Position numbers and translations under genes: made by a program. A DNA stretch of 31,414 nucleotides from a virus, in IMG/VR virus record IMGVR_UViG_3300018428_000103, positions 1-31,414 of that record; one strand, 5' to 3'. Position 1 is the first letter of the stretch. Each line of letters opens with the position of its first letter. The notes under the pieces are model-generated. The model was given only the letters and a program-made list of their open reading frames with translations. It was not told where the DNA came from and ran no database searches. This document shows positions 3,501 through 27,489 of the stretch, one piece after another.

Positions 3501-4811
3501 ATGAACAAACTTCATAAAAATTCTAATAGAGCAGAGATACTTAACGCTTCACTGTGTGGAGTAGAGTTTGAATTTTATTCTAAATTGGGCCTAAAAGAAA
3601 CCACCAAGCAATTGGAGGATCTTTTAGGCCGCTCTATTAGTATAGAAGACAAAGCACATTCTGATTTTGAACCAACTGACAAGGAGTTTAAGATAGAACC
3701 AGATATGTCAGGTGGTAAAGGTCTAATGGAGCTTGTCACTGGGGCTATGCCTTATAGAAATGCTAGAATTCTTATGATTAAGGTTTTAGGTTGGATCAGA
3801 GAAAATGGTTATACAACTGAAAGATCTGGAATTCACTTAAATCTTTCATTTGATAAAGATTTTTTAGAGGATAAGAATATGATTTCTAGAATGAACACTC
3901 TTAAGTTTATTTTGGACTTTAATGAGAAACAAGTTTATAGCTTATTTCCCGATAGAGAAGATTCAGTTTATGCTAAAAGCATTAAGTGGGTTATGCCAAA
4001 AGTTGACGCATTCCACTATGATTCAGTCAACACTTCTATTCATAACTATGATTTCCCAAATACTAAGTACTATGGAATTAATTTTGAGAAGAAACTTAAA
4101 AACTATTTGGAATTTAGATATCTAGGAGGTAAAAATTATGAAGATAAGCAAGACTCTATTTTTTACTTATGGGAAATGTTTGTTTATCAAATGTGGAAAT
4201 CTTGTAATAATTCTAATTTTACAGAAGAGAATAAATTAGAGCTTCGTAGAATTTTACATAAGAACGAGCCAGTTGCATTATCTTTAAGGGACTTTAGAAA
4301 CGTAAATAAGAATTGGCCTAAGATAGAAATTTTAGTAGATCTTAATAGTCATGGTGAGACTATAGACATGTATTGGGATCGCATGAAACATAAAGTTATG
4401 AATCTTATAACACAAGGTGGTATGACCGAAGGCATAGTCAATTATGATTCAAATATAGGTCACGTTCAAGTTAAAGATGGTAAATTTCCAGTATGCTTTC
4501 AATTAGAGGGGTATGATTTTGTTGATTGTGAAATTAAAGGCAACATAGAAGGGTGTGACCTTTTTGGTTGTAAATTAGACGGTTCTATGCTATTGAGGTG
4601 TAACTTATACCAGTCTACTGAAGTTAAGGAATCTAAAGTGGAGTCATGTTATGTGCATGGAAGCTGTAAAGTTATTAATAGCTATGTATTTGGTAGGGAT
4701 GGTATTTTCAAAGGCAAAATGACCGGAGGCATATTTAGAGAGGGTATGATATCTGATGATGCTAGATTCGAAGACACTGAGGTTGTCGTAAGTAAAAAAA
4801 TAAAATCGTAA
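3501..4811 (+). CDS. Putative amidoligase / glutamate-cysteine-ligase-fold protein with C-terminal solenoid
   Basis: This is a 436-residue protein. The N-terminal 300 residues carry motifs of the glutamine-synthetase-fold carboxylate-amine ligases, in the expected order: GVEFEF at 20-25 (metal-binding Glu pair), EPDMSGGKG at 66-74 and MELVTG at 76-81, SGIHLNLSF at 109-117 (compare G-x-H-x-H in family members), and YLEFRYLGG at 202-210 (the E-x-R motif). Such enzymes use ATP to join a carboxyl group to an amine, making peptide-like bonds. The amidoligase_2 branch is known from phages and mobile elements. From about residue 333 the sequence changes to short beta-strand repeats rich in Cys and Gly (GYDFVDC, IEGCDLFGC, SKVESCYVHG), like a pentapeptide or right-handed beta-helix solenoid. 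Substrate and partner are unknown; the solenoid could be the binding module. The gene lies between the S1-like and neck genes and the next start follows its stop by one base. Confidence 0.6.
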   Translation: MNKLHKNSNRAEILNASLCGVEFEFYSKLGLKETTKQLEDLLGRSISIEDKAHSDFEPTDKEFKIEPDMSGGKGLMELVTGAMPYRNARILMIKVLGWIRENGYTTERSGIHLNLSFDKDFLEDKNMISRMNTLKFILDFNEKQVYSLFPDREDSVYAKSIKWVMPKVDAFHYDSVNTSIHNYDFPNTKYYGINFEKKLKNYLEFRYLGGKNYEDKQDSIFYLWEMFVYQMWKSCNNSNFTEENKLELRRILHKNEPVALSLRDFRNVNKNWPKIEILVDLNSHGETIDMYWDRMKHKVMNLITQGGMTEGIVNYDSNIGHVQVKDGKFPVCFQLEGYDFVDCEIKGNIEGCDLFGCKLDGSMLLRCNLYQSTEVKESKVESCYVHGSCKVINSYVFGRDGIFKGKMTGGIFREGMISDDARFEDTEVVVSKKIKS

Positions 4812-4812
4812 A

Positions 4813-5655
4813 ATGAGCGAAATTAGAAGTGGAAGTAATGAAAGCTTAGGAACTCCAAGAGAATTTAGTAATGAGTGTGAAAACTTATTCCTAGATGAAA
4901 TTGCAGACGACTTAACCGGAGCATGTATGATTCCTATAAACCTACCTAAAAAGGAGGTTCTTAATATAATGAAAAGAGCTAAAAAATGGTTCTATAAAAA
5001 CTATGAGTATTCTGTAAAAGAAAACTATTATCATGTGCCTAATGACGTATTTAATACGGACTATTTTAAAGCACATCGTGCGTTACACTTACCAGACGCC
5101 GGCGTTGATGGAGGAGGTATGGTTTATTCTGTATTTGGCTTATATGACCTAGCAAGCGGATGGAATCAACCCGGAGGTGGCATGGATTTACGATTTGAAA
5201 GTGGAGCCGATTTTGCATTAGAGCGTATGTTATTCAGAAATGTATACGATGGTGACGGTGCGGCTAGGGGTGCAGAAGAGTTACAATACTATGTAATTAA
5301 TCAATCATTAGTTGATTTATCTAGGCAAATTATGGAAAACCCTATTTCGTTTCATTACTCACAATTAACCGGAGAACTTAAATTTATGGGGGATACTCCT
5401 AAGGGTGATGTCGTACTCGAAGTATATGAAACTATACCTGATTGTGCATTGTATTCTGATGAGATTTTCTTTAGATATGTTTCAGCTAAAGTTAAGCAAT
5501 CTTTAGGTGCAAAATTGGGAGTATTCAAATTTTCTTTACCAGGTAATGTAGAATTTGATTATTCAGAAATAAAATCTATGGGAGATGAAGAACTTTCATC
5601 TATTATAGAAGAAATAAAGGGAGATGAAGGTGTCGATTGGATGATGCATTCATAA
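4813..5655 (+). CDS. Putative neck protein, gp13-like
   Basis: This is a 280-residue soluble protein. An N-terminal helical segment, IMKRAKKWFYKNYEYSVKE at about 51-69, is followed by a beta-rich centre. The C-terminal third reads FHYSQLTGELKFMGD, VVLEVYE, FFRYVSAKVKQSLGAKLG, FSLPGNVEFDYSEI. This matches the layout I recall for gp13 neck proteins of marine T4-like phages, where YNDRFLKRYATALIKRQWG is followed by LPGG. In T4, gp13 with gp14 closes the head-tail connector. The match is by motif order, so another connector or tail-completion protein is possible. Position between the amidoligase-like gene and gp25 differs from T4. The ATG is one base after the previous stop, preceded by an A-rich leader with no Shine-Dalgarno. 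Confidence 0.5.
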   Translation: MSEIRSGSNESLGTPREFSNECENLFLDEIADDLTGACMIPINLPKKEVLNIMKRAKKWFYKNYEYSVKENYYHVPNDVFNTDYFKAHRALHLPDAGVDGGGMVYSVFGLYDLASGWNQPGGGMDLRFESGADFALERMLFRNVYDGDGAARGAEELQYYVINQSLVDLSRQIMENPISFHYSQLTGELKFMGDTPKGDVVLEVYETIPDCALYSDEIFFRYVSAKVKQSLGAKLGVFKFSLPGNVEFDYSEIKSMGDEELSSIIEEIKGDEGVDWMMHS

Positions 5656-5680: not shown

Positions 5681-6037
5681 ATGGAACTCTACATCAAAAC
5701 AATAGGCGACCCTAACTACAATCCTCTTAAAGTACATAGCGATGGTGAAATTGCTCAACTTATAACACAAATAGAAACCACACTATTTACTAATAAAAGA
5801 GAGGTTTTAGGAAATACTGATTTTGGATGTAATCTAGAGGACTTAATTTATTCATTAAACTATAATAATTTTCAAATAAAATCGGTTATCGATCAACAAA
5901 TAAGCTTTTATTGTCCGCTAGCAAAAAAATATAATGTATCAACTGATGTAAGTTTTGTTAAAGGTACAGTAAGAGATATAGCATACGTAGATATAACTAT
6001 AGACTCTAAGTACTTATTACAAGTTTATATAAGTTAA
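5681..6037 (+). CDS. 25: gp25-like baseplate wedge protein
   Basis: This 118-residue protein has the size and motifs of the T4 gp25 / GPW family: the central FTNKREVLGNTDFGCNLEDL at about residues 37-56 (the xRxxxPxFGxxL signature, here GNTDFGCNL) and a C-terminal beta hairpin. In contractile tails gp25 binds gp6 and the inner sheath end in the baseplate wedge and helps trigger sheath contraction. Although often labelled lysozyme-like in databases, it is structural. The gp6-like gene follows after a 16-base gap, the usual neighbour. The upstream gap of 25 bases contains AATAGATACTAG, a weak relative of the promoter-like element seen elsewhere. Confidence 0.85.
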   Translation: MELYIKTIGDPNYNPLKVHSDGEIAQLITQIETTLFTNKREVLGNTDFGCNLEDLIYSLNYNNFQIKSVIDQQISFYCPLAKKYNVSTDVSFVKGTVRDIAYVDITIDSKYLLQVYIS

Positions 6038-6053
6038 TAAAACAACGCATAAG

Positions 6054-7895
6054 ATGGCAGAGTTTAAATTTTTAAATACAACTAGAGTAGTAGCTTCTGA
6101 AATTATAACAGATGCTAAAACATATATAGGTAGAATCTATAATAGGGCTGGCACTTTATTTACCACGGCTTCTCCGTTTTCACAAATACTAGAAGTTATG
6201 AGTGAAATAGGTGAAATGTTATTATTTTATATAGAAGATGCTACAGTAGAGCAAAACATATATACTGCTCAGCAGCCTGAATCTATATATGGCCTTTCTA
6301 GATTAGCCGGTCACGATCCTACGAGAGGATTTGCAGCATTTGGAGAAATTACATTTAGGTGGGCTGCTGGTGTTGATTTAAGCAAAGTGGTAGGAGATGC
6401 AATTAATATACCTGTAAATACTGAGATTTCATTTGACGCAAACGGGTTATCATATATGGTCAGAACCAATAAAGATCAATTTAGAATAGAAAAAACTAAT
6501 AATAGTACGTTTACTGCTTCTATACTTCAAGGTAAAATAGAAACACAAACTGTAACTGCAACGGGTGTAAAACTTCAATCTTTCAATATACAGCCCGGTG
6601 GCTTTACAGACCATAATTTAGTTTCTGTATCTGTTAATGGAGAGCTATGGACTAAGTTTAATTCTCTATATGAAATGTTACCTTCTGATAAAGGTTATAT
6701 TATTAAAACTGGTATAGGCGGCGGCTTAGATATTTATTTTGGAAACGGTAACTTTGGCCAAATTCCAATTTCAGGGGCTTCTATAGAAATAGAATATATC
6801 AAGCATGATGGTGCTAAAGGTAACTTAGACGATTCTACAGAATTAACTTTTAAATGGGTTGATGAAGGATCAGATTCTTTAGGAAATTCGTATGACTTAA
6901 ATAAATTTTTACAAGCTACGGTCACGTCTTCTCCCAAAATGGGAGCAGATAGAGAGTCTACCGAGTTTACAAAGTTAATTGCACCTATGGCATCTAAAAG
7001 CTTTGTGTTAGCTACACCAGATCATTATGAATATTTCTTAAGTCGCTATGGTATATTCTCTTATATTGATGCATACAATACAGTAGATGATGAATATTTA
7101 GATGATGATAATGTTATTTATATTTTTGCTATTCCTGATGTTAAAAGAAAACTAGCAAAAAATATGGATTATTTTTCATTGCCTATAAATGAAATGTTTT
7201 TTGACGTGAATGAATACGCTGCTATGTCTGGAGTTTTACAGGAGTCCGGTCAACAAATGGTTACTACTGAAGTTAAATTTGTAGAGCCTAAAGCTAGATA
7301 TTATTCTATGGATATTTCAGTTAGATATTTTGAAGGTTTTAGAAAAGAAGATATATTTAATGATATAAGAGATGTAGTTTCTAAATATTTACTAAATATT
7401 ACTAGAAGAGATAAATTACCAAAATCTGATATTATTTATATTTTAGAAGAAGTAGAAGGAGTAGATGCCGTAAACGTTACATTCGTATCGGAAACTGAAG
7501 AGACTGCACGAAGACTAGGTTATTATGAGTCTATTACTACTAAAGTTGTACCAAGTCAGCCGATTGTACTAGAAGATATTGGTAATGGTAAACAAAAGTT
7601 TATATTCTTTAAAAAAATAGAAGAAAAATCATTGGTTAATATTAATCAAGGAGATCCAATTCCGGCCGATGTTGCTGGTTTAGATGAATATGGAGATATT
7701 ATTATGGAAAAAGAAGAGGTTGCTGTATTTAGAGGAGGCTGGTTAGACAGAGATGGAGAAATGATTAAAGATATACCCGCTATTAATGAAGATGCTTCTT
7801 TAACGGTTACGTTTGATGAAACTCCGGTACCTAGAACTGTTTACACTAGATTACAAGCAACTGATAGAAAATCAATAGTTAGAAGATCGTCATGA
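6054..7895 (+). CDS. 6: gp6-like baseplate wedge protein
   Basis: This is a 613-residue protein, close to T4 gp6 (660). The N-terminus, with ITDAKTYIGRIYNRAGTLF and FSQILEVMSEIGEMLLFYIE, followed by QNIYTAQQPESIYGLSRLAG at about 68-87, is the typical helical start of gp6/baseplate-J proteins. The C-terminal half has the expected alternating beta/alpha pattern, with MDISVRYFEGFRKEDIFNDI and SDIIYILEEVEGVDAVNVTF. In T4, gp6 dimers with gp7 and gp53 form the wedge core and the continuous inner ring that holds the baseplate together. It follows gp25 directly and its stop overlaps the next start in an ATGA junction at 7892-7895. Confidence 0.8.
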   Translation: MAEFKFLNTTRVVASEIITDAKTYIGRIYNRAGTLFTTASPFSQILEVMSEIGEMLLFYIEDATVEQNIYTAQQPESIYGLSRLAGHDPTRGFAAFGEITFRWAAGVDLSKVVGDAINIPVNTEISFDANGLSYMVRTNKDQFRIEKTNNSTFTASILQGKIETQTVTATGVKLQSFNIQPGGFTDHNLVSVSVNGELWTKFNSLYEMLPSDKGYIIKTGIGGGLDIYFGNGNFGQIPISGASIEIEYIKHDGAKGNLDDSTELTFKWVDEGSDSLGNSYDLNKFLQATVTSSPKMGADRESTEFTKLIAPMASKSFVLATPDHYEYFLSRYGIFSYIDAYNTVDDEYLDDDNVIYIFAIPDVKRKLAKNMDYFSLPINEMFFDVNEYAAMSGVLQESGQQMVTTEVKFVEPKARYYSMDISVRYFEGFRKEDIFNDIRDVVSKYLLNITRRDKLPKSDIIYILEEVEGVDAVNVTFVSETEETARRLGYYESITTKVVPSQPIVLEDIGNGKQKFIFFKKIEEKSLVNINQGDPIPADVAGLDEYGDIIMEKEEVAVFRGGWLDRDGEMIKDIPAINEDASLTVTFDETPVPRTVYTRLQATDRKSIVRRSS

Positions 7896-17717: not shown

Positions 17718-20700
17718 ATGCCAAACTTCGTTACTAAAAGTATACAGCTTTATTACAAACCACATGACGGTTTAAGTTTAAATCAGGGAAATGCAGATGA
17801 ATTTCCTACTTCTGATGGACCATTAATTTATTATTATAGACTTGAGAGTAGTGTTAATCCAAATCTTGTAGATTGCAATACGACTTATACGACCGTTATA
17901 GGTTTATCTACTACTGGGGGTATAGAATTAGAGGCTGCTTCATTTTCTGGAGGACCCGGATGCGCGAATCCGTTGTGGGATTTGAATCAATTGGCAGAGG
18001 CTGGAGTTTTTCTATACTATAATAACGCGTGTACCCAAGAGGCAGCTCCCGGTAAATATAGTGATAATCCATTTCCAGCTTTAACATTTGATCCAGCTGA
18101 TAATGAGATCGCGGTGGTATATAGTTATAATCCCCCTCCGAGCGTCAGCTTACACAATACTAATTATAATTGGGAGACATATACTATATTTACACCACTC
18201 GGTGGAATAGAGAACGATTTACAGAGTAGAAACGTTTCGCCTATAAATGCGGTATATGTAAATTTTACAGGAATCCCTGGCCAAGTTTATCAAAAAATAG
18301 TACCAGTAAACGGAATACCATGCAATTTCAGTATAGGTACAATACCTCTTTCCAATATAAGTTATTTTCCGACAGAAGATGTACCTCCCGGAGCTACATT
18401 AGCAGAAATAGCTGAAGGAGGAATACCTTTAATGGATGGAGATGGCAACCAATTAACTACAGGGTATTTTGCGGATCAATCTTTCCCTAGTACAAATAAT
18501 GACGTCTTTATTTATGAAGCTCAAGGTCTTCAAAATTCATTCACTATGAATTGGGAAGAATTTATTTGTACTCAAGTAGTTGCACCTAATCTTCCAGTTA
18601 AAGAATTTTTTGTCAAACACGCTTCTACAATTGAAGCAAACATAGAGGTTGATTCTAATAGCAATTCATTTTGTTCTATAGGCGAAGAAATTAGAATATT
18701 TTATACAAGTAATTCTGATTATGATACCTTTGAAGAGCTTATGAGGGCTCAAGAACCTATTTATTATAGCAATGTAGATTTACCAATTGAAGTTTTACCA
18801 GAGTATTGGCAGCTTATACATGCGGGTCAAGGTGCGTATGGGTTAGATGATAATAGATATTTTATTTATTTATTAGAAGAACCTCCAACAACTACAGGGT
18901 ATACAATTTCAGGTTGGTATTCCTTTGGTTCTTCTCAAACTTATTCTCTTGTAGATCAAAATTCCGTAGCAATTTATTGTAACGTAGACGGTATTTCTAT
19001 ATCGCAGGTAAAAACAATTGATTTAATTTATTCAAATACCGAGGCCGGTTATTGCAGTATAACCGTAAACAATCAGGCACAAAATACAATAACATGTCAA
19101 TATCTTAACATACTATGGGATTCTTCTCAGGGTGGAAATCCACCTGATTTAACACTTAATGAGATTATTTCTAATCAAATTCCTATTTATATTAATAGTC
19201 AAAGTAACCCAGCATATTACGATATACCTAGTCTTTTATTGGATAGCGGATTTTACGGGGATCAAACCGGAATTTGTTATAACTTTAGTAGTGCTTTAGC
19301 ACAACAAAGTAATAACCCTTGGAGAGGTAGAGATCTTATTACTATTTCTAGTGAATATAGTTTACCGTTTATATGTGAAGGCAATTTACAACAAATTTCT
19401 TTATATAGTATAACTGGAAGTACAGGAGTTTGGGGCACTTTATATCCTGATTATGATTTTAGTGATGAATGGTGTTATAGACAAAAGACTCCAGTTACTT
19501 CTAATTATTATTATAGTTTACACCCTGATCTAAATTTTGATATTCATCAAATAGTTCAGTACGGCGTAAATTTATATACAGACCTTCAACTAACTAATGC
19601 GTTAGATACTGATTCATATTCTGATGATTTATCTTATTATTATAAGTGGGTAAATAACGTTGATGGAACTGGAGGTAATTGGATAGGACTTAATGCCCAA
19701 GGCCAAGAAACATCTTCATTTATAGAAAGCGAAATACAGTGTAATTTAACGCCTAATGATAATTTATTTCCTTCTGATTCAGGTTTTCAAATTAATAATA
19801 CTACGAATATAGGAGATGATGGTGAATTATTAGCATATTATGTCTTTACTTCATGTATACCAATAAACGGAGTTTATAGCAATTATATAGTTGCAGGTGC
19901 ACACACTAACATATCGGATACCCAATCTGGTCATATGTGGGATCTTAAGGAGGAAATAGGGTTTAATTCTACTTTTTTTAGTTTAGATTCTTTAGACCTT
20001 AAATTTGGTTGTAAAAAATTAATAGGTATAATATATGCAATGGATCCTTCATTGGCAATGTTATCAATGAATGAACTTGGATATTCTATTGGAAATACAG
20101 AATATGTTAGTGCAGGCACAATAGGCATACTAAGCGAAGGTGTCATATATTATTTTAATAGCGAGCCATATTGTCAAAATTGTATTGATTTTTCAAATGC
20201 TTCTGGTTCTTTTACATTTCCTGAGTTTAATGATGGCACAGAAATAGAAGATGTATCTCCTAGATTTGATTTAGAAAAAAATTATAATTTACATAATGTT
20301 TCTAAGCCATTATTAAGAACAAATCCTAGGCTTACTGGAAACGTAAAGTTAGTTACGTCTTCCAATGATGAAATATATTTAGAATCTATAAACGCTAATA
20401 AAGAGCTTGCGGATTCTAGGTATAAGAGATATGGTATAAGTAAAAGCGGTCTATATGTATATGATGTATCTAGATTTTTTAATGATAATAAAACACCATA
20501 TGATATGGTGTATGAAACAAAAAGAATATCATCTGACTTTTCGGTTTTAGAAACATATGATTTACAATTTGAGGATGAGTATCAATATGGAGTAAGATTT
20601 AATAAGTCTAAATTATACGATGAAAATTTTAGAATTTTTGCTCCTATTAAACTAGATACTAATATTCCTAAAAAGTTTGTGATATATCGCGTTAATTCCC

Positions 20701-23700
20701 CGAAACAAACTCAAGAATTAAGCGATAGTGCATTAGATAAACAAACTAGAATAAACGAATTATTGGCAAATGCTACGATCATAAAAGTGTTTGACTTAAG
20801 TGAAACGTCTAATTTGGGCAGTTATATTAGAAATCATGTTTTTAACGAGGAATTTAAATCATCTCCTCTTACTGTTTCCTTTGAAAAAAATGAACAAACC
20901 TTTTATAATGGTATAGACTTGGTTAAAGGCGGCTTTACTAGTAAGGGAGAATATATCTACAAAGACTTTGTGAATACTGATAAGCCTCTTATTGAAGCCA
21001 ACGATTTTATTACCGACGGATTTAAAAGAAATAGAGTAGTATCTGCAGATATTCTAAACTTAGAATTTATGTTTGATGATAATGATGCTGAAGATTATTC
21101 GGTTAATAGATACTTTGGCCTATATGTTGATGAAATTCCAACAGGAAGAGGCGTTATTCAAAGAGTAAATAACGGCTTAATTAAGTTTAAAAACTTAACA
21201 TCATATATGTTCTATGACAATTTAGAGGGTTCTTTATTTGATGGTTCCAAGTTTGCTATACCTTCTAGTCAAATGATGAGAGATATACCTATTTTAGGTT
21301 ACGTTAAATGTGATTCACACTATCATAATATATTAAATGGTGCAGGATGGGATGCAAATAACTATACACTTAAGATACAAGACAACGGAGATTCTATAAA
21401 TAGATTTGTAGGAATAAAGGATACAAATAGAGTTGTTTCTTTATTAGAAAATTCAGGGGTTGGATATGATTTCGTTAAAATACAAATAACTGATATACCC
21501 AGCAATGGATGTAGAATAGCTGTGCCCGAAATAAAACAACAATCTTATTGTGTTGAATTTATTAATTACATATCTAACACTAATATAACTGTTAATGTAT
21601 CGTATCCATCTTCTCAACAATATGTCATAAATACCGGGACAAGTGTAGAAGAAGCCTTAAATAATATTAAAACTTCAATTGAAGCTGACAATTATTTTAC
21701 AATTGATATAGAAAATAATGTATTATTTATAAAGGAAAAATATAGATCTTTTTCAGACCACGGTTTAAATATAACTTCTAACAATCCAGCGTGTGTATTA
21801 AAGACATTTGAAAACTATACTCACTTTAATTTATTAGAAAATATATTAACCGCCGACGATTCCATTCCAAAAGGTAGATTTGATGGGTCAAGATTTTCAA
21901 ATTTAGGTACGACTAATGATGTATTAATTGCTTTGTCTTCTGCAATTAAAGATAAAAACGGATTAGATACTATTAATTTTAAAGATTCTATTTATGTATA
22001 TGCAAATCAAAATATAGGATATGATACTAGAAGGTTTTGTGTTCTTTTAAAGAATGATAATCCTAATCAATTTTGTAATATATCAAATCTAGATGAATCG
22101 AATAAATTAGACGTACATGAAGATATTTTATTAAATTGGTCTGCATATTATATGATAGGCGGTCATTCAGATGGTAGATCAGTTTTAATTTCTAAAGATT
22201 CGGTCGGTGGAATAAACATAGGTGATTACATTAATACTAAATCTCTTTCAATTTATAATCAAGTAATAGATATAGTTGAAAATATAAATGATTTAAAGGG
22301 TGATTACTTAAAGGTAGTATTTAAAATTAGACACGTATTAGGCAGTGGAGAATTTAAAGTTTTTTCAGAATACGAGGCTGAAATAGGGCTTTTATCAGCA
22401 TATGACATGTATGATTTGGGTTTTGATTTTTACGATACTTCAAATTCAGATTTAAAAGAACTTAAGTATGAGACTTATGAAAATACTAATTATGTCCCAG
22501 CAAATGAAGCTATATTTGAATCAAACACTGATCAAGAATCAATTGCTAATGCGTTAGAAGGTATTATAGATTACAGCTATTATCTTACCCCCGATAATTT
22601 CTTTGCTAATTTAACGCCAGTCTTAAAACCTGAATCTCCAACTGAAGAATCTACTGAAAAGATATATTCTGAATTTGATAGATTAAAAGAAAATCAACTT
22701 AAAGAGTTTTCTACAAATTCTAGAATAGTACCTAATATAAACAAATGGGTATTAAAGGATACCAAAACTGTTAGAGATCAGCCATATTATTTAAACGTAA
22801 ATGAAGCTTTCGGAAGGACTAATTTTGCACCCGACATTACAATAGAAGGAAGAAATGCTTCTTCTTTTTCTCATGAATGGTTTTATATACTTAATAAGCC
22901 TTCTTATTTAAAACACTACATGTTAAATGATACGTTTAGCTATATTAACTACATAAATGGATTTAACTTAACTAAAGATTTATTTAAATCAATAGATAAT
23001 GATTACTTTAATAATTTTATGGTTAGTGAAGGCTTTGATGTTTCTGTAGACCCCGATGATTCTCAAATCTATGTGGTTACTAAATCTGGCGATAATCTTT
23101 TAATTAATGATGAAATTAGTGTTAGCTTGAAATTCGTTGTAGGAGAAACTTACTTATTTAATTTATCTAGTTTGGAAAATCCTACTTTATTTTCTATTGA
23201 AACAAACGGAGTTGGAGAATATGTTTATGAAATTATAGCAGGTACACCATATGGTAAGTACACGACTCTTACTTCTGGATATATTAGTTATTCTTATGAT
23301 TCTGTGCCTAAAGGATTTATTAGTGTAAATACAGAAGATTTGAATAAGTTTGAAGCATTTATAAAAACTAATCGTAATATTAAATATACCTTTTCTAGAG
23401 GCGGAAGTGAAATAGATTTTTCTTCTACAATATTTAAGGGTCTTAAATTTACATTTAAAAACAGAAAAGAATTTACAAAGGAAATACCTTCTGAATTTTT
23501 AAAGGATAGCTCATTTAATGAATATAAATTTTCTGTTGTAGTAGATTTTAAAACGGGTCAACCTAATAATTCTATTAATTATGAAATTATAAAGAATGAT
23601 AAATTCAACTACGTTATTTTCTTTATAAATGTCAACTTAGATGAGGTATATGTCGGTAATACATTAAATAGAAAATTAGCATATTTGCTTTCAAACCAAT

Positions 23701-25430
23701 TACAATCAGTTGGAGATGAATATATTAATGATGATGTAAAGATAAATGGCGCATTAGATATAAGCACTATAGATTTTAATCAACCTGGTCCATATATTAT
23801 ATCAGGCATAGATCACTTTGATGGTACATCTCCGGATTTCTTAACTCAAATTGCGCCCGGTCCAGATGGGACATATGGTCAATTAGAAATAGATTATCAA
23901 ATAGATGATTCTAATGGAGATCCAATAATATATTATTTACAGATAATTAGCGTATTGTCTGATAGTCAAATAGTAGTAGAAGGGTTTCCAACAGATGGCC
24001 AAGGAAATGTTATAAATCCAGTATATGTTCCTTTATCTTTACAGGAAATTGCCGAATACGTTTATGTTGGCGGAGGAGCCAATAATCACAATCAATTATT
24101 GTCTAATTTATCTATTAATAATATTGTAGATATGATAAATGGATATAATCCCTTAATCAAGTATACTACGATAACTAAAGATGGCCAAGAGTTAACAAAT
24201 AGGTTTGTCATGACAATTGACGATGGAAAGGAAATAGTTAGAAATTCTAAATTAGTGGCAACAGCAGATATTAATAGGCCTAAAAGCTATAGTTTATCTA
24301 AAGGAAATATAGGATATGTATTAGAAGAATCTAATAATTATTACCCCTTCTTAATTAGACACTCTGGGCATTATGACTACGATTTAAAGCCTATTGTTAC
24401 ATTTACTGACATGTACACTCATTTTAAGGTAAATAGAAATTACGTTAAAAATGCATTCTTAGAAGAAAAATTGTTTAAGAATAAATTTTATAAGCATCCT
24501 TATTTTTATGTAAACGAAGAAACTAGTCCAAACTCAGATGGACCTAGAGATGTGCATAGAGCAGAATCTTATTATCGTAAATATAATAGAACTAATGTTG
24601 CGTTCAATTTAGGATTTATTTCTGACGATGGCATGCACGATTCGAATTGGGGTATAATTAAAAATCATTTTTACCATAAAGTTAATGAAGATAATTCTAC
24701 TGGTGTAACCAAGCTTAGTGAAAGTAGTGAGTTTTTACCTCAATATCCTTTAATAGGAGAAATAGCAATTGATAAAAAGGATGTTAACGTGTTTAGGTCT
24801 TCTTGGGAACAAGACTACTACAGAACTGCATTGGCAGGAGGAGAGTTTAATTCTGCACCTGGAACTCTGTCAACCGTAGAATCAAGGTCTTATTTGGCAT
24901 CTACTGTTATGAAATTAAAAGAATCATATACTATTACTTCTTTTACCTTTTCAAACGTAGGTACTTTTGAAAATTTAGATCGTATACTAAAAAATAATTC
25001 TCATACAACTAACGTTGTCTTTGCCGAAGATTCTGAAAAGGTTTATATAGATTTTTATATGACGGATTTAATATCGGATGTATTGTCAGACATAGGAGTG
25101 GCAAATGAAATTAAAAAATATGTTTCTGAAGACGCTTCATTTCAAAATAAAACCGATTTATCAGATGACGTGAAATCTTATGTTAACAATAATTTAGTTT
25201 CATTATTTTCCATAGATGAAGTAGAGCTTTATGTTAGAAAAACACAAAGTGAAATAACTCAATTAAACCCAGTTGAATCTTTAGATCAAATTAATAATGG
25301 AGGATTTGAAATAGACATAAATTATACTTTAGTACAACATAAGCAAAGACCTGTTAATTTTAGATTGATATATAATAAGAGTTTAGGATATTCTTATGTT
25401 ATGCGACCAGTTGTAAAAATAAAACAATAA
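17718..25430 (+). CDS. Giant 2570-residue virion protein with N-terminal Cys-containing repeats
   Basis: This is the largest gene in the window. Residues 1-840 hold about 17 cysteines and roughly six degenerate units centred on L-x-E-[IL]-x(3-4)-[IV]-x-[IL]-Y-x-[DN] (for example LNEIISNQIPIYIN, IHQIVQYGVNLYTD, LAEIAEGGIPLMD), a module type common in fibres of Bacteroidota phages. From about 850 (KPLLRTNPRLTGNVKL) to the end, cysteines are few and the sequence is mixed alpha/beta. Residues about 1801-1861 contain a cupredoxin-like segment (VVGETYLFNLSSLENP). The C-terminal part contains PLIGEIAIDKKDVNVFRSSW and a long polar stretch. There is no signal peptide or membrane helix. It is probably a tail fibre, tail-hub extension or adhesin; the repeats may bind the cell surface and the remainder may anchor to the virion. 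A copy of the promoter-like element lies inside its last 70 bases. Confidence 0.6.
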   Translation: MPNFVTKSIQLYYKPHDGLSLNQGNADEFPTSDGPLIYYYRLESSVNPNLVDCNTTYTTVIGLSTTGGIELEAASFSGGPGCANPLWDLNQLAEAGVFLYYNNACTQEAAPGKYSDNPFPALTFDPADNEIAVVYSYNPPPSVSLHNTNYNWETYTIFTPLGGIENDLQSRNVSPINAVYVNFTGIPGQVYQKIVPVNGIPCNFSIGTIPLSNISYFPTEDVPPGATLAEIAEGGIPLMDGDGNQLTTGYFADQSFPSTNNDVFIYEAQGLQNSFTMNWEEFICTQVVAPNLPVKEFFVKHASTIEANIEVDSNSNSFCSIGEEIRIFYTSNSDYDTFEELMRAQEPIYYSNVDLPIEVLPEYWQLIHAGQGAYGLDDNRYFIYLLEEPPTTTGYTISGWYSFGSSQTYSLVDQNSVAIYCNVDGISISQVKTIDLIYSNTEAGYCSITVNNQAQNTITCQYLNILWDSSQGGNPPDLTLNEIISNQIPIYINSQSNPAYYDIPSLLLDSGFYGDQTGICYNFSSALAQQSNNPWRGRDLITISSEYSLPFICEGNLQQISLYSITGSTGVWGTLYPDYDFSDEWCYRQKTPVTSNYYYSLHPDLNFDIHQIVQYGVNLYTDLQLTNALDTDSYSDDLSYYYKWVNNVDGTGGNWIGLNAQGQETSSFIESEIQCNLTPNDNLFPSDSGFQINNTTNIGDDGELLAYYVFTSCIPINGVYSNYIVAGAHTNISDTQSGHMWDLKEEIGFNSTFFSLDSLDLKFGCKKLIGIIYAMDPSLAMLSMNELGYSIGNTEYVSAGTIGILSEGVIYYFNSEPYCQNCIDFSNASGSFTFPEFNDGTEIEDVSPRFDLEKNYNLHNVSKPLLRTNPRLTGNVKLVTSSNDEIYLESINANKELADSRYKRYGISKSGLYVYDVSRFFNDNKTPYDMVYETKRISSDFSVLETYDLQFEDEYQYGVRFNKSKLYDENFRIFAPIKLDTNIPKKFVIYRVNSPKQTQELSDSALDKQTRINELLANATIIKVFDLSETSNLGSYIRNHVFNEEFKSSPLTVSFEKNEQTFYNGIDLVKGGFTSKGEYIYKDFVNTDKPLIEANDFITDGFKRNRVVSADILNLEFMFDDNDAEDYSVNRYFGLYVDEIPTGRGVIQRVNNGLIKFKNLTSYMFYDNLEGSLFDGSKFAIPSSQMMRDIPILGYVKCDSHYHNILNGAGWDANNYTLKIQDNGDSINRFVGIKDTNRVVSLLENSGVGYDFVKIQITDIPSNGCRIAVPEIKQQSYCVEFINYISNTNITVNVSYPSSQQYVINTGTSVEEALNNIKTSIEADNYFTIDIENNVLFIKEKYRSFSDHGLNITSNNPACVLKTFENYTHFNLLENILTADDSIPKGRFDGSRFSNLGTTNDVLIALSSAIKDKNGLDTINFKDSIYVYANQNIGYDTRRFCVLLKNDNPNQFCNISNLDESNKLDVHEDILLNWSAYYMIGGHSDGRSVLISKDSVGGINIGDYINTKSLSIYNQVIDIVENINDLKGDYLKVVFKIRHVLGSGEFKVFSEYEAEIGLLSAYDMYDLGFDFYDTSNSDLKELKYETYENTNYVPANEAIFESNTDQESIANALEGIIDYSYYLTPDNFFANLTPVLKPESPTEESTEKIYSEFDRLKENQLKEFSTNSRIVPNINKWVLKDTKTVRDQPYYLNVNEAFGRTNFAPDITIEGRNASSFSHEWFYILNKPSYLKHYMLNDTFSYINYINGFNLTKDLFKSIDNDYFNNFMVSEGFDVSVDPDDSQIYVVTKSGDNLLINDEISVSLKFVVGETYLFNLSSLENPTLFSIETNGVGEYVYEIIAGTPYGKYTTLTSGYISYSYDSVPKGFISVNTEDLNKFEAFIKTNRNIKYTFSRGGSEIDFSSTIFKGLKFTFKNRKEFTKEIPSEFLKDSSFNEYKFSVVVDFKTGQPNNSINYEIIKNDKFNYVIFFINVNLDEVYVGNTLNRKLAYLLSNQLQSVGDEYINDDVKINGALDISTIDFNQPGPYIISGIDHFDGTSPDFLTQIAPGPDGTYGQLEIDYQIDDSNGDPIIYYLQIISVLSDSQIVVEGFPTDGQGNVINPVYVPLSLQEIAEYVYVGGGANNHNQLLSNLSINNIVDMINGYNPLIKYTTITKDGQELTNRFVMTIDDGKEIVRNSKLVATADINRPKSYSLSKGNIGYVLEESNNYYPFLIRHSGHYDYDLKPIVTFTDMYTHFKVNRNYVKNAFLEEKLFKNKFYKHPYFYVNEETSPNSDGPRDVHRAESYYRKYNRTNVAFNLGFISDDGMHDSNWGIIKNHFYHKVNEDNSTGVTKLSESSEFLPQYPLIGEIAIDKKDVNVFRSSWEQDYYRTALAGGEFNSAPGTLSTVESRSYLASTVMKLKESYTITSFTFSNVGTFENLDRILKNNSHTTNVVFAEDSEKVYIDFYMTDLISDVLSDIGVANEIKKYVSEDASFQNKTDLSDDVKSYVNNNLVSLFSIDEVELYVRKTQSEITQLNPVESLDQINNGGFEIDINYTLVQHKQRPVNFRLIYNKSLGYSYVMRPVVKIKQ
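17960..20150 (+). repeat. Degenerate protein repeats, about six units, in the giant protein
   Basis: The repeats are visible only at protein level. Each unit has a Cys, a stretch of 25-60 residues, then L-x-E-[IL] and a short [IV]-x-[IL]-Y-x-[DN] strand, followed by a Tyr/Asp-rich segment and often a second Cys. Unit length varies from about 90 to 150 residues. DNA identity between units is low, so they are old duplications or exchanged modules. The bounds given are approximate. Confidence 0.45.
23118..23300 (+). other. Cupredoxin-like module (copy B)
   Basis: Residues 1801-1861 of the giant protein, with FVVGETYLFNLSSLENPTLF and SGYISYSYD, match residues 86-140 of the protein at 28298 (LEAGKTYKFNLNALPDPSLF and YGTINYSYQ). 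Both share the G-x-T-Y-x-F start with the module at 8611. No His/Cys/Met copper ligand set is present. Confidence 0.5.
25362..25374 (+). promoter_or_regulatory. AGATTGATATATA promoter-like element, copy 2
   Basis: This is an exact 13-base copy lying inside the last codons of the giant gene and ending 57 bases before the start of the collagen-like fibre gene. Because it is within coding sequence it might be chance, but its identity with the copies at 3463 and 30918 and its place just before a gene start argue for function. Confidence 0.45.
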
Positions 25431-25431
25431 A

Positions 25432-27489
25432 ATGCCTATAAATTTAAAGGAAATATTTGTAGATGATACTAATCAAATTAGGATAGACAAAATTAATTAT
25501 AATTTTGATCAAATTGTGGCGCTGGGCGGTCAAAGAGGACCAATTGGATCACAAGGTTTTATTGGTCCAGCCGGCCCAACCGGTGCTCAAGGCGCTATAG
25601 GCCCAACTGGTATTGCAGGTAATGATGGAGCTGATGGTAACGACGGCACCGATGGATGGACACCCATATCACATGATTCGGTTACCGGTGTAAATAATGC
25701 TGATTATGATGCAATTATAATTAAACCTAACTTATTTGGAAAACCTCAACCGGCTTCTGTTTATATCGGTGATCCAGCATTTGATGATAGTAACAATTCA
25801 GATGGAGATACTACAACTAGAGCATCGTTAGTAGTTGGTAAAAGCGATCCGTTTGAAAATAATATCAAGATTACGATTGATGGTAATCCTCATGAATTAG
25901 TCATTAGAGGTGATGCAAGTTCAGATTATGGTGGAGTTATCTATCATATTCAAAAGGGCGATGTAAACGATTCTTTAAATACTAAATTAGAACTAAGTTT
26001 TAATGATATCGATTTAAACGCAACTTCAAATGAACCAGATAAAGGTGATATAACACTATCTTCTAATAAAACTTTAGTAATTTCACCGGATAGAGGGTTT
26101 AACACTGAAGTTGGAACACAATCGTATTTTAACGATAGAGTTCATGTTGTCGATGCTGATCTTTTAGTACAAGGTACAGGATTTACTAGAGTATCTAAAG
26201 GAACTACAAGTGAAAGAGATAATATTGCAGAATCTGATTTATCCGGTGGAAATATAAGATATAATTCTACGTCAGGTCAATATGAAGCTTATTATGAAAA
26301 TACGTTTGATGGCGCTAAATGGTTAAACTTAAGACAGCTAACAGATGCTGATGGAGATACTTACATATCTTTACCTATATCAAACGATAATGACAAAATA
26401 GAATTTGTATCAAATAATGATAATTATTTAAGGATTGGAGGTACTCAATTTTCATTAAAGGCTCAATCAGCATCTAATATAACTGTACCGACAATACTAG
26501 TTAACAAAACTATTTTTGCTAGAGAAAACTTACATATTATAGAAGACGGCAAGGGTCTTTCATTTAAAGAAGGACCGGCAGCAACTAACACGGATTCGCC
26601 AACCGGTGGATCTGCTGTTAATTACGATACTAATATTTCAGATAGAACATTAAGTGACTATTTTTATAGAGCTCCTGGATTTTTTGAATTAGAAAACTTA
26701 GTACAACCCAATGATTTCGGTTTTTCAGACGGTAACTTTCCTGGTTTAACCAATGGAGATACCCCTTATTTGACTAATCAAATATTTATGTATACCGTTC
26801 CAACTAGCGGTTTAGTAGGAGAAGGAAACGAAACTTCTGGTTTACAATTTGCAGCATCCGTCAGCGCTGCAGCCGATGAAGGATCTAATGATCCAACCGG
26901 TAGATTATTAACTCTAATAAATGATAATTCTGAAGTTTCATATCAAAAGATAGGTAACTTGGTTCATGTCAATGTTAGATTAGTTTGGAAGCCATTTACA
27001 TTTGATTCAAATGAAAATGGAAATGATTATGATACATATCCTGGTACTTATTTCCAACAAACGTTTGGTGCAACAACGGATGAATCAAAATACTGGAATG
27101 ATACCGAATTAGAAAGTGTACCTATTTCTTTAAATATACCTGAAATGTATAGAAGATTACCTTCGGTTAATAACCAAGTTATTAGTGATTTTACGCACGA
27201 GAACATAAATTTATCAACTATTTCTGGAGCGGCTGATAAACAAACTAAAATTAAGTTTAAATCAGGTAATGGTTATGGTGAATTATTTGTTACCAGTATT
27301 GAAGGAAGTAATACAAGTATAAAAGTAAGTGACATTGTAAGTGTAAATCTTGATCCTGGTGAGTGGATATACTCTAATTTTAATTTTACTTATTTCTGCG
27401 ATAGTAAGTCTACTTGGCAATCAAACATTTCTTTTAACGATTCTATTGATGGTGGATCAGGGACCGTTAATCTAGGAGGAGGAGACTAA
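25432..27489 (+). CDS. Collagen-like tail fibre protein
   Basis: This is a 685-residue protein. The N-terminus, with EI then RIDKINYNF at 17-25, resembles the docking peptide of the protein at 11446. Residues 33-74 are 14 uninterrupted Gly-x-y triplets rich in Pro, Ala, Thr and Asp, a collagen-like trimer rod. Around residues 275-310 is GGNIRYNSTSGQYEAYYEN, then W-L-N-L and DADGDTYI, the module found in many T4-like tail fibres (I-R-Y-N then W then D-x-D-x-D-T-Y-I). The rest is beta-rich, ending in a glycine-rich tip, GSGTVNLGGGD. It is probably a receptor-binding or side fibre. Start: the ATG is two bases after the previous TAA with an A-rich leader; a promoter-like element lies 57 bases upstream. 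Confidence 0.7.
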   Translation: MPINLKEIFVDDTNQIRIDKINYNFDQIVALGGQRGPIGSQGFIGPAGPTGAQGAIGPTGIAGNDGADGNDGTDGWTPISHDSVTGVNNADYDAIIIKPNLFGKPQPASVYIGDPAFDDSNNSDGDTTTRASLVVGKSDPFENNIKITIDGNPHELVIRGDASSDYGGVIYHIQKGDVNDSLNTKLELSFNDIDLNATSNEPDKGDITLSSNKTLVISPDRGFNTEVGTQSYFNDRVHVVDADLLVQGTGFTRVSKGTTSERDNIAESDLSGGNIRYNSTSGQYEAYYENTFDGAKWLNLRQLTDADGDTYISLPISNDNDKIEFVSNNDNYLRIGGTQFSLKAQSASNITVPTILVNKTIFARENLHIIEDGKGLSFKEGPAATNTDSPTGGSAVNYDTNISDRTLSDYFYRAPGFFELENLVQPNDFGFSDGNFPGLTNGDTPYLTNQIFMYTVPTSGLVGEGNETSGLQFAASVSAAADEGSNDPTGRLLTLINDNSEVSYQKIGNLVHVNVRLVWKPFTFDSNENGNDYDTYPGTYFQQTFGATTDESKYWNDTELESVPISLNIPEMYRRLPSVNNQVISDFTHENINLSTISGAADKQTKIKFKSGNGYGELFVTSIEGSNTSIKVSDIVSVNLDPGEWIYSNFNFTYFCDSKSTWQSNISFNDSIDGGSGTVNLGGGD
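25528..25653 (+). repeat. Collagen-like Gly-x-y repeat, 14 triplets
   Basis: Residues 33-74 of the fibre protein have glycine at every third position without a break. The first part is Pro/Thr-rich and the last part Asn/Asp-rich (NDGADGNDGTDG). Such segments in phage fibres form triple-helical rods; length changes by slippage are common. Confidence 0.85.
27474..27484 (+). promoter_or_regulatory. Shine-Dalgarno-like AGGAGGAGGAG before the membrane coiled-coil gene
   Basis: This is the only strong anti-SD match upstream of a gene in the window, seven bases before the ATG at 27492. It also encodes the Gly-Gly-Gly tip of the fibre protein, so it may be coding only. Bacteroidota ribosomes make little use of such sites, so its effect in this host is doubtful. 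Confidence 0.3.

Follow-up and report, generated by a model that had tools for sequence, protein, structure and literature searches.

What does a predicted amidoligase do for a phage that encodes it, fused to a beta solenoid, between an S1 gene and a neck gene? This question is raised by the sequence studied here, a 31.4 kb viral fragment of 31,414 nucleotides from a large marine phage, which is referred to as the window. The gene in question is an ORF with an ATG start at positions 3501 to 4811 on the + strand, as are all of the motifs and genes of this block described below. It encodes a protein of 436 aa, which is modelled by AlphaFold2 as a glutamine synthetase (GS)-fold amidoligase followed by a C-terminal beta-helix.

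Fold and putative active site of the catalytic domain

An AlphaFold2 model of the window protein was generated from an alignment of 64 family sequences that are 28 to 90% identical to it, and reached a pLDDT of 90.8 and a pTM of 0.84. The GS-fold catalytic domain occupies residues ~8 to 240 (3522 to 4220), as placed by VIA-align and hhalign. When the catalytic half is compared to the glutamine synthetases of the PDB using VIA-align, Z scores are up to 11.4 over ~185 residues at 3.4 to 3.6 Å. Foldseek by itself gave modest E-values against the PDB, the best being 7e-4. The highest match in the viral structure library shares the full-length architecture, and most of the named matches below it are called amidoligases; the model matches dozens of predicted structures of phage proteins annotated 'amidoligase enzyme'. 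The predicted fold is GS-like, where a fold unrelated to GS or GCS had been set beforehand as the outcome that would overturn the amidoligase assignment.

Relatives and profiles were needed to classify the catalytic domain. With the window protein on its own, searched against Pfam, PHROGs, NCBIfam, and PDB sequences, the only informative match to the catalytic domain is phrog_33777, a family of unknown function; there is no Amidoligase_2 match to the window protein in Pfam and its class membership rests on its relatives. The search of the window record with PF12224 (Amidoligase_2) was also empty, as expected because the window protein is a divergent member. Among the 64 family members, 12 match PF12224 at E<=0.01 (best 3e-7), and homologue L022, which is 63% identical to the window protein, passes the gathering score with 31 bits against 22. 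The anticipated Amidoligase_2 match is therefore found in the relatives, but not in the window protein itself. With hhalign, the family profile aligns to the Amidoligase_2 protein of Agrobacterium phage Atu_ph07, gp196, over residues ~29 to 234 (probability 97.9, E 5.6e-13), with the motifs in register from D68 onward and the ExE pair outside the aligned region. Profile, profile-profile, and structure comparisons thus agree with the original prediction of a GS-fold amidoligase joined to a solenoid, and the assignment of the window gene to the Amidoligase_2 / glutamine-synthetase-fold class is well supported.

Tandem phrog_33777 paralogues related to the window amidoligase are present in Salicola phage SCTP-2 as gp124 and gp125 (L085, 11023 to 14783). 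Two genes downstream of these, gp122 is a ClpP homologue.

The motifs GVEFEF, SGIHLNLSF, and LEFRYLGG, on which the original prediction was based, are all present in the ORF where it had placed them. GVEFEF (residues 20 to 25; 3558 to 3575) contains the ExE pair E22 and E24, corresponding to E129 and E131 of E. coli GlnA. The stretch FKIEPDMSGGKGLMELVT (residues 63 to 80; 3687 to 3740) contains D68 and E77, assigned by motif to GlnA E212 and E220, and SGIHLNLSF (residues 109 to 117; 3825 to 3851) contains H112, assigned in the same way to H269. The last stretch, TKYYGINF...LEFRYLGG (residues 188 to 210; 4062 to 4130), contains K189 and N194 (R339 and R344 in GlnA) as well as E204 and R206 (E357 and R359), with LEFRYLGG itself at residues 203 to 210.

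Seven of these residues, E22, E24, D68, E77, H112, E204, and R206, are invariant in 64/64 homologues of 28 to 90% identity to the window protein, and so are K189 and N194 (64/64). Every one of the five that had been proposed from the single sequence (E22, E24, E77, H112, and R206) is among them. Invariance down to 28% identity is far beyond chance. Their order and short spacings match E129, E131, E212, E220, H269, E357, and R359, residues that were checked in GlnA, and the spacings of 5 (K189 to N194, which replace R339 and R344) and 2 (E204 to R206) are identical to those in GlnA. By motif order, the ligands of metal n1 (E131, E212, and E220) would correspond to E24, D68, and E77, and those of n2 (E129, H269, and E357) to E22, H112, and E204. 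The functions of the corresponding residues in GlnA are established GS biochemistry. The conservation of these putative catalytic residues is well supported and, judged from the sequence correspondence, they would share one pocket. In comparisons with five relatives, dN/dS is 0.03 to 0.09 in the catalytic half; synonymous change is near saturation in the solenoid half. The amidoligase family is under strong purifying selection.

The C-terminal beta-helix and the distribution of the fused form

Residues 300 to 436 were also folded alone by AlphaFold2 and form a beta-helix with a pLDDT of 94.9. The helix, which a profile match suggests to be of the pentapeptide-repeat type, extends over residues ~306 to 436 (4416 to 4808) and is probably right-handed, as are the helices that it matches. 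The C-terminal third is 5.3% cysteine and 13% glycine, against 0.7% and 4.7% in residues 1 to 300; the Cys/Gly-rich C-terminal beta solenoid of the original prediction is therefore seen in both the predicted structure and the composition. Most of the solenoid cysteine positions are exchanged with serine among the homologues. For this reason a catalytic role for these cysteines is unlikely and they look like core packing positions, rather than functional cysteines.

A profile search with the solenoid placed pentapeptide-repeat proteins first (AlbG, E=1.7e-4). Pentapeptide_4 matches 28 of the 64 family members at E<=0.01 (best 5.4e-6), with its gathering score missed in every member inspected (22 to 27 bits against 38 in the best members). 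In VIA structure comparisons the pentapeptide proteins have Z scores of about 7 to 10 and antigen 43 is slightly higher. A Foldseek search with the solenoid returned nothing below 0.001, thus the pentapeptide-type assignment is mainly sequence-based.

The solenoid is kept essentially throughout the relatives. Only two of those collected have short ORFs: one begins at the edge of its contig, and that of L232 begins at an internal ATG, yet its match spans nearly the entire query. That the fusion of amidoligase and solenoid is obligate in this family is well supported.

One scan identified at least 239 relatives among the viral-contig matches and a profile-guided scan identified over 500, counts that are not independent since samples and contigs overlap. 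In GenBank, full-length relatives are present in uncultured phages of 462, 634, 636, 642, and 735 kb. The two-domain architecture is retained across the family, which includes marine phages and the genomes of 634 to 735 kb, read here as Mahaphage. In one study, all of the largest genomes recovered were put in the Mahaphage clade, with Bacteroidetes hosts predicted for those over 634 kb (PMC7162821), and a 'glutamine synthetase' has been reported in Moraphages (PMC12619734). When searched with the family alignment, 13 out of 13 records of 80 to 735 kb have one full-length copy. The family profile has no match in the Lak, Tenacibaculum, PAU, Chryseobacterium, and Flavobacterium phages, which are related to the window phage via neck or baseplate genes. 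The best reading of this distribution is that the solitary amidoligase belongs to the core of a huge-phage lineage.

The 735 kb phage has a second ORF, of 692 aa (LR756501.1, 618226 to 618408, - strand), that matches the solenoid part of the profile only. In the cellular genome collection just three contigs (L255 to L257) carry the gene, all from metagenome bins labelled as bacterial; one is 254 kb and from a 'Bacteroidetes' bin. These are possibly phage DNA that was binned with that of the hosts.

Phage amidoligases are widespread and the superfamily was already known, of which the beta-helix-fused form is a variant. Within the open-access literature that was searched, no description of the fusion or of its distribution was found, nor an experimentally defined substrate for a phage amidoligase. 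Being solitary, single-copy, under purifying selection, always fused, and found in the largest genomes, the variant appears to mark a conserved biochemical step of the megaphages.

Gene neighbourhood and proposed function

Directly upstream of the amidoligase gene is that of a ribosomal-S1-like phage protein (2149 to 3447; Pfam S1, E=7e-23), which has three S1 stretches and also matches ribosomal S1 models. Directly downstream, after a gap of 1 base, is a head-tail adaptor or neck protein gene (4813 to 5655; phrog_211, E=1e-9). Its PHROG match is the head-tail adaptor Ad2 family and its counterparts in Tenacibaculum phages are annotated 'neck protein', so that the setting between S1 and neck genes holds as first described. 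These are followed by a baseplate gp25-like protein gene (5681 to 6037), called from its position and a weak match below the cut-off (Pfam GPW_gp25, E=0.014), and a baseplate wedge (gp6/J-like) protein gene (6054 to 7895; phrog_219, E=7e-30). Elsewhere in the window there is an ORF of 2570 aa (17718 to 25430) with a partial match to phrog_31887, of unknown function, and a gene for a tail-fibre-like protein (25432 to 27489), residues ~28 to 110 of which match collagen-like and other tail-fibre families.

Relatives of at least 55% identity have the S1 gene as immediate upstream neighbour in 81/81 assessable cases and the neck gene as immediate downstream neighbour in 87/87, although these come from one lineage and are not independent, and shared ancestry alone could explain the conserved position. 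Below 38% identity, S1 adjacency falls to 0/37 and neck adjacency to 1/41. In a distant subfamily, VanY-peptidase/tail and weak baseplate-wedge matches adjoin the gene in about 28 of 48 loci, and the neighbouring VanY/tail operon is mostly divergent from the amidoligase gene. L204 (2540 to 7888) and similar loci are of this kind, and the other flank of the amidoligase gene often has a DHH-type protein (weak match). A virion or late-stage target had originally been suggested from gene position; the position on which this was based is perfect in close relatives, but has mostly been lost in distant ones.

The window protein is probably an active ATP- and metal-dependent carboxylate-amine ligase that is docked by its solenoid and independent of a GATase, with a protein or peptide as its late-stage target. 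Going by the correspondence with GlnA, E24/D68/E77 and E22/H112/E204 of the GS-fold domain would serve in the binding of ATP and of two or three divalent metals, and substrate and phosphate would be held by R206, K189, and N194. The carboxylate of one substrate would be phosphorylated and then passed to an amine, which could be that of an amino acid, ammonia, or a lysine. The non-catalytic beta-helix may serve for docking to the substrate or for oligomerisation. The amidoligase would act alone, without the GATase partner of the classical phage clusters, on a protein or peptide target made or met during assembly. While the docking, the late timing, and the type of substrate are all inferred, a macromolecular and late substrate is the most economical suggestion, given that the protein has a solenoid, that GATase is absent, and that the gene keeps its place among virion genes.

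A more specific version can be put forward only tentatively: that, during assembly, the predicted amidoligase docks through its beta-helix on a neck or baseplate protein and either cross-links it or attaches an amino acid to it, as a core function of the largest phages. We know of no phage in which an amidoligase of this kind is a virion maturation enzyme. The neighbouring neck, baseplate, and S1 genes provide a small set of candidate substrates. If a virion or host protein is the target, this would be a new route by which phages alter proteins post-translationally.

It is possible, if rather doubtful, that the product of the enzyme is instead a small metabolite, or that its target is host cell-wall peptide, for instance in phage exclusion or counter-defence, and that its place among virion genes only reflects late expression. 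There is precedent in phage phiEco32, for the amidoligase and GATase of which cell-wall modification and superinfection exclusion have been suggested (PMC10580990, citing Iyer 2009), and in a distant subfamily the neighbouring operon includes a gene for a VanY-type peptidase. However, GATase_6 was found in 0/14 records, with controls found in 14/14, and GGACT (3/9 relatives) and RimK (1/9) are sporadic and unlinked to the amidoligase, unlike in the LUZ24 cluster. The obligate solenoid suggests a macromolecular partner and so stable a genomic position is unusual for an accessory gene.

That the enzyme modifies the phage's own S1 protein or the translation machinery, with an outcome like the glutamylation of a ribosomal protein by RimK, is improbable. 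The S1 adjacency of the close relatives (81/81) and the resemblance of the phage protein to ribosomal S1 would fit such a role, but in distant relatives, where adjacency is 0/37, S1 is encoded elsewhere in the genomes, and the Lak phages, which have an S1-like protein, gave no match with the family profile. It is very improbable that the GS fold has lost its activity and been retained as a structural or assembly component of the neck or baseplate, since a pure scaffold would not require the equivalents of the metal ligands and the substrate-binding R and K residues to be invariant in 64/64 homologues, even though the gene lies between virion genes in close relatives and beta-helices are common in virion proteins.

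Comparison with known systems

The window gene differs in its setting from the amidoligases of phage LUZ24. The annotated enzyme class of LUZ24 gp16 and gp18 is the same, but these belong to a multi-gene cluster of the early region with GFAT, RimK-like, and GGCT genes, whereas the window gene is solitary and without a GATase. Profile comparison with gp16 and gp18 was not significant, these being weak tests with single sequences. Partner genes of amidoligase clusters are reported for phages elsewhere too (PMC10580990).

Atu_ph07 gp196 has the GS-fold domain in common with the window protein, with the D...E, H, R...Y, K-Y...N, and EFR motifs aligned over ~197 columns, and it is above the PF12224 cut-off, as is L022. 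It differs in having no pentapeptide-type match, where the window protein has its C-terminal beta-helix, and in being encoded elsewhere in its genome rather than in a virion gene block.

GlnA shares the catalytic fold, with counterparts by motif for its six metal-ligand positions and for R339, R344, and R359. The window protein is about 12% identical to it, is substituted at D68, K189, and N194, has no evident sequence counterpart of the GlnA loop with R321 and E327, and adds the C-terminal solenoid. The pentapeptide-repeat proteins AlbG, MfpA, and Qnr share the predicted right-handed beta-helix, although in the window solenoid the repeats are short and irregular, and scores at least as high are reached by other beta-helices of this handedness, antigen 43 among them. 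A counterpart in overall design is BFVD entry A0A6J5PQ40, from an uncultured Caudovirales phage. Listed as an uncharacterized protein, it has both domains in the same arrangement from end to end, with a TM score of 0.88 at 25% identity.
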